From assembly GCA_903836265.1 (NCBI GenBank), contig CAILQK010000072.1, positions 1-39,170 of the forward strand: 39,170 nucleotides of DNA. The letters are read 5' to 3'. This document shows, in pieces, positions 11,387 through 14,961 of the stretch. Within the stretch, counting starts at the first letter, position 1, and every line of letters starts with the position of its first letter. The notes beneath the pieces were generated by a model. That model did not search any database and had not been told where the DNA came from. It saw nothing but the letters and a program-made list of their open reading frames with translations. The stretch is from an uncultured Bacteroidota bacterium (GTDB taxonomy: Bacteria > Bacteroidota > Bacteroidia > Chitinophagales > Saprospiraceae). A program made the position numbers and the translations under genes.

Positions 11387-13054
11387 TCAAGGTTCAGCAT
11401 GGCGCTCCCCGAGTGACTTCCATTTGTCCTCAAGCCACTCCCAGTCCACCACGGTTTCCTGATCGAGACGGGCCCGGATACGTTTCAGTGCAGCAGAAGC
11501 ATTATATTTTTTATCTATTTGAAGCTGTTCCCTGACTTTGTACAATTCTTTGGCTATCGAAAAAAACTGGAGTCTTTCTTCGCGTCTGTGTGTGGGCAGG
11601 GAGTCTTCCCGCCTGATGTGCGTGGTTGTGGCGTGCATCATGGCGGCCCCGTAATCGTCCTCCAGGTCACCCAGTTCGTAGTGGATTCTGACATCGAGGG
11701 TGGCGGCTATGGCATACAGATATATGTCTTCGCACATACCATAGTTGAGGTAGTGGGGCAATTTGCTGGCTGCGTCCCTGAAACTGCCGCGATAGGCATC
11801 TACTGCAGCTCGCGTGATATCCACCAGCAGGGAGGTTTGTACGGTATCCAGACCGCGCAACCTGCCTGAGTACTCATCTACAAATGCAGCACACCAGTCT
11901 GTGAGCCCGAGTTTTAGACCCGAGAAGAGCGTATTCTGATAAAAGGAGGTGGCAATGGTTTCACCCGGTTTTACCTGTTCCAGCTGGCGTCGCTGCCTGT
12001 TGTGCAACTTCTCCATAAAGCGCCTGTCGCGCGTTTCTCTGTAGCGGGCCGGCCAGAAACTGCGAAGAAGGATTCCGAGCGTATCAATCCTGTTTTTGGG
12101 GAGTACGCCCGTGTTCCGCTCCAGCAACAGTTCGAAAGCTTCCAGTCGCTGATCTGCAATGGTCGGGTCGTTTTCGGTAAAAAATTCCAGAAAAGTACAA
12201 TACAAGTCAACCCCCGGATCTACAGAGAGCCCTGTATGCCGGATAAGGCCAACAAGTTCTGTGGTGAACTGCACATTGGCTTCATACCGCGCAAATTCGG
12301 GAGAGCCGGCTTCAAAAAGAGCCAGCCTTCTTCCGTAATGGAGCAACTGACATATATGTTCCAGTTTGGCAGTCAGATAAAATGAATCGAGGCGCTCTGT
12401 AGCTGCGAGCAGGTTGTTGTCGCCCTCTTCCAGACTGCTTGTGGTTTCATACAATACTTTTTCGTGTTCAGTCATGAACCGGAAATACATGAAATCCATG
12501 AACTCATACTCGTCAAACGCGGAAAGTTGCCGTTGCCCGTCTAGGGCATCGCGCACCTGCTTGTTCAGATTCAGGAAGAAGTTTTCCGCCTTGCGTCCCT
12601 TTCGGTAACCGGTTTCCCGGGGCATGGACGGCTGTTTGTCTGCTCCCTGCGACTGCGTATTCTGGTGCAGGCGCTCGTTGTACAGCCGCATGAGTGCCAG
12701 CTTGTGTTGTATATCGTGCAAAGATACCTTTTCGGTGTTGTTTGACCTGGCGTCCCGGAGTTGTGTGTATCGGAAAGCAACAAATTTTCGCACAACGTTC
12801 ATCAGTTGCGTCATGGTGCGCTGCAGTGAGCCCACCGGATTGGCAGCATTCGGGAAAAAATGACGCGCTGCCACCTCACGGTCAATTTCAGGGGCGTTGA
12901 AATGGGGATAATGCGGCCGGAGATACTCAAAAAGAGAAGAGGTTTCCTCTGGTCTCACATCATTGAAGATGGGTGAGGAAACAAACGAACGTAACACCTC
13001 CATTTCTTCCCTGTTCAGGAGTTGCAGTGTGCGTATGAGCGGACTCTGGTACAC
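11387..13054 (-). CDS. Large alpha-helical protein of unknown function
   Basis: This 555-residue protein starts at a GTG. The start is kept because the segment it adds (LIRTLQLLNREEMEVL) runs straight into RSFVSSPIFN, a pattern I associate with the N-terminus of uncharacterised Saprospiria proteins; an ATG at 13003 is the alternative. The composition is strongly helical, rich in Leu, Arg, Glu and Tyr, with repeated aromatic-hydrophobic helices resembling TPR-like scaffolds. There is no signal peptide, membrane segment or catalytic motif, so it is probably cytoplasmic. Its position directly upstream of bshA on the same strand suggests a shared transcript. No function is assigned. Confidence 0.8.
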   Translation of the reverse strand: MYQSPLIRTLQLLNREEMEVLRSFVSSPIFNDVRPEETSSLFEYLRPHYPHFNAPEIDREVAARHFFPNAANPVGSLQRTMTQLMNVVRKFVAFRYTQLRDARSNNTEKVSLHDIQHKLALMRLYNERLHQNTQSQGADKQPSMPRETGYRKGRKAENFFLNLNKQVRDALDGQRQLSAFDEYEFMDFMYFRFMTEHEKVLYETTSSLEEGDNNLLAATERLDSFYLTAKLEHICQLLHYGRRLALFEAGSPEFARYEANVQFTTELVGLIRHTGLSVDPGVDLYCTFLEFFTENDPTIADQRLEAFELLLERNTGVLPKNRIDTLGILLRSFWPARYRETRDRRFMEKLHNRQRRQLEQVKPGETIATSFYQNTLFSGLKLGLTDWCAAFVDEYSGRLRGLDTVQTSLLVDITRAAVDAYRGSFRDAASKLPHYLNYGMCEDIYLYAIAATLDVRIHYELGDLEDDYGAAMMHATTTHIRREDSLPTHRREERLQFFSIAKELYKVREQLQIDKKYNASAALKRIRARLDQETVVDWEWLEDKWKSLGERHAEP

Positions 13055-13285
13055 TTCGCTTTGCGGGTTGTGGTTCGCGGGGTTGCGCTGCTGCGAATTT
13101 CGGCAGAATTCTCGTATTTCAGGAAATTACCTGTGTTTTTTGAAAAATTTCTCTCTCTGTACCAGCATCCGTTTTTCACTGCAGGCGCACAAGTGTATTA
13201 CTATATCCTGTCATATTCGCACTTCCCGGGCCGTTTGCCTGAAAACCCCGCCGGTTTCTTTGGAAGTAATGCCGTTTTCTGTGTT

Positions 13286-13316
13286 TTGAAGCATCGCTGC
13301 AGTGCCCCCATCTTTG
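13286..13316 (+). promoter_or_regulatory. Bacteroidota-type promoter P1 of the candidate RNA locus
   Basis: TTG (13286-13288), 20 bases, CATCTTTG (13309-13316). The surrounding GTGTTTTG and CCCCCA blocks recur in P2. A stem, CGGATTC (13339-13345) with GAATCCG (13368-13374), follows shortly after the expected start. Confidence 0.55.
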
Positions 13317-13587
13317 TGTCATCAAAAGGGGATTGCGGCGGATTCAACCGATTTCTTTGTGAGGAACGAATCCGGAGAACCAAAGTAATACCCTTACCTG
13401 AAAAGGATTGCCACATTACCTGTCCGGTGCTTTCCGTTCGAAGAAAGGAGTGCAGAAGCTGACTAAAACGGGAAAACATGAGAACGAAGAAGGGAAAATC
13501 GTTTCATCATCAAACGCAGCAGACCGGAGGCACCGGCAGGCAGGCATTGAAAGAACGAAGGCTGGAAGTGATCGAAGATTTTGTGTT

Positions 13588-13618
13588 TTGGATCCGGAGT
13601 GTGTTACCCCCACCTTTG
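13588..13618 (+). promoter_or_regulatory. Bacteroidota-type promoter P2 of the candidate RNA locus
   Basis: TTG (13588-13590), 20 bases, CACCTTTG (13611-13618). The spacing is the same as P1, as are the flanking GTGTTTTG and CCCCCA blocks. Transcription would start near 13624 and run about 230 bases to the terminator. Confidence 0.55.
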
Positions 13619-13855
13619 CAACGCAAAGCAAAACGAGAAACTGAAAATTGACTCATTTACCCAAAAACCGCCAAACCACATGAAGACGAATCCCGGGAAA
13701 CCAGTTTTGAAACAGACAGGCGACACAATGCGCTTTCAAACCTGAGGACCATTTCGAAAACCGGTACCGCGGCATATAGTCACATCCTGTATGTCCCGTA
13801 TTTCCACTTGAAACGCATTGCCCGCCCGGGAAAGCCCGGGCGGGTTCTTTGTTTT
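13619..13855 (+). ncRNA. Candidate structured small RNA (about 230 nt)
   Basis: The stretch between P2 and the terminator has no ORF longer than 21 codons (13680-13745). A long-range stem pairs CAATGCGCTTTCAA (13726-13739) with TTGAAACGCATTG (13808-13820): 13 pairs and one bulged C. It closes a roughly 68-base domain and directly abuts the terminator hairpin, which would allow coaxial stacking. A smaller hairpin lies inside (CATATA with TGTATG, one G-U pair, about 13774-13794). I could not match it to tmRNA, RNase P RNA, SRP RNA or 6S RNA hallmarks. The call rests on promoter, structure and terminator alone. Confidence 0.45.
13820..13855 (+). terminator. Strong rho-independent terminator, plus strand
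   Basis: CCCGCCCGGG (13821-13830), loop AAAG, CCCGGGCGGG (13835-13844), then TTCTTTGTTTT. The T-rich side is only on the plus strand, so it ends plus-strand RNA. The adjacent annotated genes on both sides are on the minus strand, so it belongs to neither. Confidence 0.88.
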
Positions 13856-13891: not shown

Positions 13892-14428
13892 TCAGGCTCG
13901 CAAGACAGGTACTGAAGCGGGCAGTTTCCCCGGTTTCTCCTCGCTCCACTCTTGTGTTTTTTTGATCAGCCTGTTCAGGTCATCCAGCCTGAAACGGCCC
14001 CTGACCGATATCATGCCGGTTACCTCTTCTGCTCTGAAGAATACGACGAGACTCCGGAGTGTACCTTTTTCCTCTCTGGCCAGAATCTGAAAACGGTCTT
14101 TTCCGCTGCGTACCGTGATGATTTCCTCCAGCTGACGGCGCGTGGCCTTTCTGTTGAATTTCTGGAAATCGCTGTCGGTTACAGGACTTCTGTCCTCAAA
14201 AACAAGAATTCTCGTGGCGTGCATCCGTCTCAGCAGCATGCGCTCTTCCCGCTCGCCGGCAAAAAGCGAACTGATGCCTGTGACCGCTCCCGGTATCCGC
14301 AGTGCGATTGCGCCGTCGTAACTTTTGTACTTCCAGAATAGTCCGGCATCCTGTGCGTCTGCACGTACTGTGTACGAAATGGCCACAAACAGGAGCAGAA
14401 TTGCCTTGAATTTGATCATTCTGTTCAT
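13892..14428 (-). CDS. DUF4252 domain-containing protein (second copy)
   Basis: A 178-residue exported protein with an N-terminal hydrophobic signal segment (about 5-26, ending ADAQ). It resembles its neighbour in length and layout: a signal, an early conserved hydrophobic region, a VLVFEDRS-like strand, an RRQLEEIITVRSGKDRFQI segment matching the neighbour's YDELLTVRDGEEHVRI, and a final GRFRLDDLNRLI-like helix where the neighbour has GKIDLAKISGLA. This is the DUF4252 pattern found beside ECF sigma factors in Bacteroidota. The ATG overlaps the preceding stop by 4 bases (14425-14428), so translation is probably coupled. The molecular function of DUF4252 is unknown. It is the last gene of a four-gene minus-strand cluster. 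Confidence 0.8.
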   Translation of the reverse strand: MNRMIKFKAILLLFVAISYTVRADAQDAGLFWKYKSYDGAIALRIPGAVTGISSLFAGEREERMLLRRMHATRILVFEDRSPVTDSDFQKFNRKATRRQLEEIITVRSGKDRFQILAREEKGTLRSLVVFFRAEEVTGMISVRGRFRLDDLNRLIKKTQEWSEEKPGKLPASVPVLRA

Positions 14429-14961
14429 TCCTGCTTCTTTTTGATTTTGTCCAGGTGTTCAATACCTTCTACATCGAGCGTTTCAGCCAGTCCCGAAATC
14501 TTCGCCAGGTCAATTTTACCCGACAGGCTCAGCATGATGAACTCATCGGGTGCCCCTACAAGCAGCAGCAATTCTTCAATGACAGTGTCACTTTTGTTTT
14601 CCCTGGTCCATATTCTTACGTGTTCTTCGCCATCGCGCACGGTTAACAGCTCGTCGTATTCCCTGACAGGAACGCGGCCCAGGGCATCGTTGTACAGCTC
14701 AAGTCCGTTGTTCACGCTGTCGGCAACAAGCACCTTGAGTCCTCCAAGATCCTTTACAATATCACGCATTTTGTTCCATTCTTCATCGTCGCTCGACACT
14801 TTCGAGATCATGCTGAACAGTTTGGGTGCCACATACACCACAGTAAAGCGCTCATCTTCGGCATACTTGTTGAAAAATCGGGATATGGCGTCATTTTGTG
14901 CATGCAGGTTGAATGCAGTTGCAAACAGGAGCGTGCACATCATCAATAATCTGATTTTCAT
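14425..14961 (-). CDS. DUF4252 domain-containing protein (first copy)
   Basis: A 178-residue exported protein with a clean signal peptide (MKIRLLMMCTLLFATAFNLHAQ). The mature part begins DAISRFFNKYAEDERFTVVYV, the characteristic start of DUF4252. It then has SMISKVS, GLKVLVADS, YDELLTVRDGEEHVRIWTRE and a C-terminal GKIDLAKISGLAETLDVEGIEHL helix. The protein is probably periplasmic. It lies 68 bases after the putative anti-sigma gene and overlaps the second DUF4252 gene by 4 bases. The conserved association with an ECF sigma factor suggests that it is a regulon member or a sensor component, but no biochemical role is known. Confidence 0.87.
   Translation of the reverse strand: MKIRLLMMCTLLFATAFNLHAQNDAISRFFNKYAEDERFTVVYVAPKLFSMISKVSSDDEEWNKMRDIVKDLGGLKVLVADSVNNGLELYNDALGRVPVREYDELLTVRDGEEHVRIWTRENKSDTVIEELLLLVGAPDEFIMLSLSGKIDLAKISGLAETLDVEGIEHLDKIKKKQE

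Follow-up and report, generated by a model that had tools for sequence, protein, structure and literature searches.

A probable non-coding RNA locus with short repeated motifs beside a helical-repeat protein gene in one genus of Saprospiraceae

What is encoded by a conserved stretch of DNA that has its own transcription signals and no sizeable gene? The question is raised by positions 13619-13855 of a contig from an uncultured member of the Saprospiraceae, of which 39,170 nt were analysed (hereafter, the window). A sequence-only reading had proposed that this interval encodes a structured small RNA on the plus strand. Promoter, terminator and conservation, together with the lack of an Rfam match, confirm a unit resembling a non-coding RNA, and a functional non-coding RNA locus is very probably real. 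The RNA had been taken to be an isolated one. Instead, the interval is the last third of a plus-strand locus that extends over about 13320-13855, and it most likely represents the 3' module, or short form, of a lineage-specific non-coding RNA locus.

The interval carries the signals of a Bacteroidota transcription unit. Promoters in this phylum follow a -33/-7 consensus, TTTG/TAnnTTTG (PMC7366714; PMC6847099). The plus-strand promoter, previously described as good, fits this consensus with TTTG at 13587-13590 and CACCTTTG as the -7 box, ending at 13618, but this box lacks the TA. At the other end, the perfect GC-rich intrinsic terminator that had been described is present on the plus strand at 13820-13855, where a stem-loop (about 13820-13845) is followed by TTCTTTGTTTT, in keeping with the GC stem and T-run of such terminators. 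Both flanking genes lie on the minus strand, as claimed. The plus strand of the interval holds just one frame, of 21 codons (MKTNPGKPVLKQTGDTMRFQT, 13680-13745), which agrees with the claim that it contains no sizeable reading frame. This frame is judged not to be a real gene, as neither the frame nor its sequence is kept in the distant relative G026 and it has no family match. A coding gene was rejected more generally, since this frame, a 57-aa frame and the ORF of G026 all lack family matches.

The longer locus is defined by its promoters. The pattern GGAAGT-N12-YGTGTTTG-N23-YCTTTGT, which has a fixed spacing, occurs in two plus-strand copies within the locus. Copy 1 (13260-13317; GGAAGT-N12-TGTGTTTTG-N-CATCTTTGT) is expected to start transcription at about 13320-13324. 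Copy 2 (13562-13619), which drives the shorter unit, is expected to do so at about 13622-13626 and is also found in G026 and the sister species G017. A 27-nt promoter element has just two occurrences genome-wide, at 13260 and 13562, both in the locus. In relatives, the full pattern keeps its exact spacing while the spacer sequence is unconserved. With no more than one mismatch allowed, it occurs in 31 of the 42 genomes of the genus, which represent one genome per species and include many fragmented MAGs. Among about 290 family members outside the genus, matches are rare, weak and comparable to the reversed-pattern control. G029 and G062 each carry two tandem units with a separate promoter for each, which speaks for promoter 2 of the window being real. 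For the G001/G035 and G029/G063 groups, homology is judged mainly from promoter and leader. We infer stable transcripts of ~230 nt (promoter 2) and ~530 nt (promoter 1), the latter including the interval as its 3' part. A similar promoter and a conserved leader (AGAAGGGGAAACCGAC...) also precede genes for large, apparently secreted proteins (G020:C6, G016:C483 and G033:C17; L112-L114). This leader has no Rfam match and may be another undescribed leader element.

The sequence-only reading had looked to conservation in relatives as a check, and conservation proved strong. In G017, a Saprospiraceae MAG, the 3' module (13620-13855, plus strand) is 97.6% identical over 13646-13855. In the same comparison, identity is 56% at third codon positions of the adjacent gene, which encodes a 555-aa protein, and 50-64% in flanking intergenic DNA. 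The difference between the RNA and these third codon positions argues for strong selection on the RNA. The more distant G026 keeps two blocks, at about 13676-13712 and 13765-13815.

How much of this conserved RNA is folded? The previously noted long-range stem on the plus strand (13726-13739 with 13808-13820; 13 Watson-Crick pairs and one bulged C) is present and forms part of the minimum-energy fold of the interval. It also exceeds all dinucleotide shuffles, as none of 300 reaches 13 pairs and the best has 12. However, the stem is unchanged in G017 and has no counterpart in G026, and covariation therefore gives it no support. The fold z-score of the interval is -2.27 with the terminator and +0.53 without it. 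Thus, the interval owes the label 'structured' to its terminator and its conservation, while the rest of the interval folds no better than shuffled sequence. Near the 3' end, a plus-strand hairpin CAUAUAG...CUGUAUG (13773-13793) is followed by a CCA-N2-TGAA motif and then by the terminator. Most relatives whose unit is full-length have an equivalent of the CUGUAUG hairpin ahead of the terminator, and CCTGTAT is the most enriched 7-mer in seven representative units.

The best-supported structure lies upstream, outside the interval proposed by the sequence-only reading. This 5' domain (13419-13540, plus strand) consists of a bulged helix in which 13419-13429 pair with 13531-13540 around the block GAACGAAGAAGGGAAAATCGTTTC (13482-13505), which is identical in all three close relatives. 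Across four sequence groups, in an alignment anchored by hand between groups, 5 of the 10 pairs of this single-bulge helix show compensatory changes and 1 of 80 cells is broken. The helix scores well above shuffles in most relatives, although the window copy is no better than its shuffles (z -0.6).

The RNA also contains a short repeated motif. Three plus-strand copies of CCR-N0-5-TGARR lie at 13676, 13701 and 13804 (13676-13815). Family-wide, CCA-N0-4-TGARA occurs in 56 copies against 7.7 expected from shuffles (reversed control, 3 against 2.9), the motif CCR-N0-4-TGARA having been chosen after inspection of the sequences and the window holding just three copies. G062 carries the motif in a tandem repeat with a unit of about 70 nt (L116, G062:C215). 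In G019, a tandem unit CCTTGGCGGGG...CCGGTGAAAAC is found, with motif spacings of 43, 52 and 47 nt (L119, G019:C91). Because these tandem repeats lie within the RNA unit, the copy number of the motif differs between species, and because their spacings are not multiples of three, the repeats are unlikely to be coding.

The constant neighbour of the RNA is the divergent gene for the 555-aa protein (11387-13054, minus strand). The sequence-only reading had instead linked the RNA to a DUF4252/ECF cluster, on the other side, but DUF4252 adjoins the RNA in just three genomes. In the window, tandem DUF4252 genes occupy 13892-14961, and an alignment suggests that one gene of this pair is missing or fused in G017. 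The 555-aa protein is predicted to be a TPR-like solenoid; its AlphaFold model is all-helical (pLDDT 79). It has no Pfam, PHROG, PADLOC or significant PDB match, and no RNA-binding signature was found in it. Orthologues are present in most genomes of the genus. The RNA unit is head-to-head with the orthologue in 26 genomes, and in two more (G007 and G013) it lies behind an inserted gene, which is fibronectin-like by reading of its translation alone. Outer neighbours on both sides differ between genomes, while the linkage to the 555-aa gene holds, and a second 555-aa paralogue in G021 likewise has a divergent unit. Paralogues of the protein are numerous in the genus, forming a large family with up to 17 matches per genome that corresponds to no Pfam family. 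Genes for fibronectin-like, apparently secreted proteins with similar promoters adjoin 555-aa paralogues in G004, G007 and G013 (L122, L087 and L121), which suggests a small regulon.

Is this a known RNA? The locus had not been matched to tmRNA, RNase P, SRP or 6S RNA from sequence alone. A covariance-model search with all families of Rfam 15, these four included, agrees with this, as nothing at the locus reached the gathering threshold and the best match below it (E 0.26) was driven by the terminator. The 25 related loci searched are likewise without an Rfam match. The 6S RNA model (RF00013) has no match at the locus or in its own genome (G000), but this is weak evidence, as the model matches just 5 of 14 control genomes. 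No match was found in viral contigs, phages or plasmids, and a mobile, phage or plasmid origin was rejected. A literature search returned nothing on this RNA locus. An RNA locus beside the 555-aa gene, throughout one genus of Saprospiraceae, is previously undescribed.

Several known systems are nevertheless instructive for comparison. The CsrB and CsrC sponge RNAs display tandem short protein-binding motifs, in the form of GGA hairpin loops, and have a strong terminator. The locus shares with them tandem copies of a short motif resembling a protein-binding site and a strong terminator. In contrast, its motif is CCR-N-TGARA, its linkers are G-poor and it adjoins a helical-repeat gene. A CsrB-type sponge RNA was rejected because the repeat is not a GGA-loop CsrA site. 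Type III toxin-antitoxin RNAs are near-exact tandem repeats immediately ahead of a ToxN/CptN/TenpN-like gene that points the same way. Such an RNA was also rejected, as the neighbouring gene is divergent rather than in the same orientation and has no Pfam or PADLOC match. OLE RNA is about 600 nt long, forms a protein complex and is found mostly in Bacillota (PMC12054373). It resembles the locus in size class, in being single copy and in having a biochemical role that is not established. Unlike OLE, which is already described, the locus is confined in our sample to one Saprospiraceae genus, matches none of the Rfam models and has much less structure. Intergenic small RNAs of Bacteroides thetaiotaomicron, GibS among them (PMC7366714), are similar to the locus in promoter type, in the size of its short form and in being largely unstructured. 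The locus differs from them in its linked partner gene, its tandem motifs and its longer second form, and there is no known sequence relation. Bacteroides has no obvious homologues of the usual RNA chaperones, Hfq and ProQ, and the mode of action of Bacteroidota small RNAs is open (PMC7366714).

Overall, the interval is best explained as the 3' module of a multi-site RNA locus that would bind or titrate a protein, a reading to which we give about an even chance. Under this explanation, a lineage-specific non-coding RNA would be transcribed divergently from the helical-repeat protein gene, using a dedicated promoter type. Hairpins at both ends would keep the tandem CCR-N-TGARA sites exposed in linkers that are G-poor and unstructured. 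As a binding platform with multiple sites, the RNA could then titrate an RNA-binding protein or act as its scaffold, although we hold this mechanism only tentatively. A protein-binding platform fits the combination of tandem motifs and a constant partner gene, from which binding is inferred. The divergently encoded solenoid protein would be the leading candidate partner, but a direct role for it is doubtful.

A serious rival is a trans-acting antisense RNA, in which the 230-nt unit would use a conserved single-stranded stretch close to the 3' hairpin to pair with target mRNAs and need no dedicated protein. This alternative is less probable than a protein-binding platform but still a real contender. 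The unit's own promoter, its terminator and its size are typical of intergenic small RNAs, and most of the unit folds like shuffled sequence while being nearly invariant. Furthermore, the small RNAs of Bacteroides act without a recognisable Hfq or ProQ (PMC7366714). However, a constant partner gene and tandem motifs are unexpected for a simple seed-pairing RNA. The conserved, close head-to-head arrangement could also mean that the region is purely a cis element controlling the divergent gene, with any transcript a by-product. This is highly improbable, given that conservation extends to the terminator, 800 nt from the gene start, and that the RNA unit and the 555-aa orthologue are on different contigs in G019 and G004. 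Still less credible is an operon of short peptides in which translation of numerous very short ORFs would begin weakly at CCR-N-NTGAAA sites. These sites do resemble A-rich ATG or TTG starts, and Bacteroidota initiate translation without Shine-Dalgarno sequences (PMC6847099), but close relatives keep neither peptides nor frames, and the G062 and G019 spacings described above are not multiples of three.

The RNA might alternatively be a remnant messenger, formerly the mRNA of a 130-aa beta-rich protein, of which the window retains leader and trailer after loss of the ORF. Such an ORF, absent in the window, is carried under the same promoter type by some RNA loci of the genus (G026, G033, G065, G063, G022, G008, G006, G021, G064, G031, G007, G013 and G062), with promoter 2 serving it directly in G026. 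Within the sample searched, the ORF has just one match outside the genus, which is weak and partial. Fold comparison found no significant counterpart for the 130-aa protein (pLDDT 80) or for the 555-aa protein. In G021:C1 (L084), ORF and 3' domain are separated at ~930-1260 by a long satellite of GATATT type, within which there is a run of N. A remnant messenger is nonetheless unlikely. The RNA without the ORF is still more conserved than coding third positions, and in G062 the ORF and a distinct RNA that lacks it have promoters of their own. The gene tree implies four or more changes for the ORF, whereas every deep clade has the RNA, which indicates that the RNA outlasts the ORF. The ORF appears to have been lost about four times with the RNA retained each time, these counts being approximate, as G013 was scored as lacking an RNA unit that is present behind the inserted gene.

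To return to the protein-binding platform, its furthest extension would be that Saprospiraceae possess a multi-site non-coding RNA of a new class, joined in a ribonucleoprotein to a helical-repeat protein that is encoded divergently and represents an RNA-binding family not known before. The phylum would be one in which the members studied have no obvious Hfq or ProQ. This is a long shot. Even so, the conserved association of one protein gene, throughout a genus, with a single-copy RNA locus that has a promoter type of its own provides a concrete RNA-protein pair to test.
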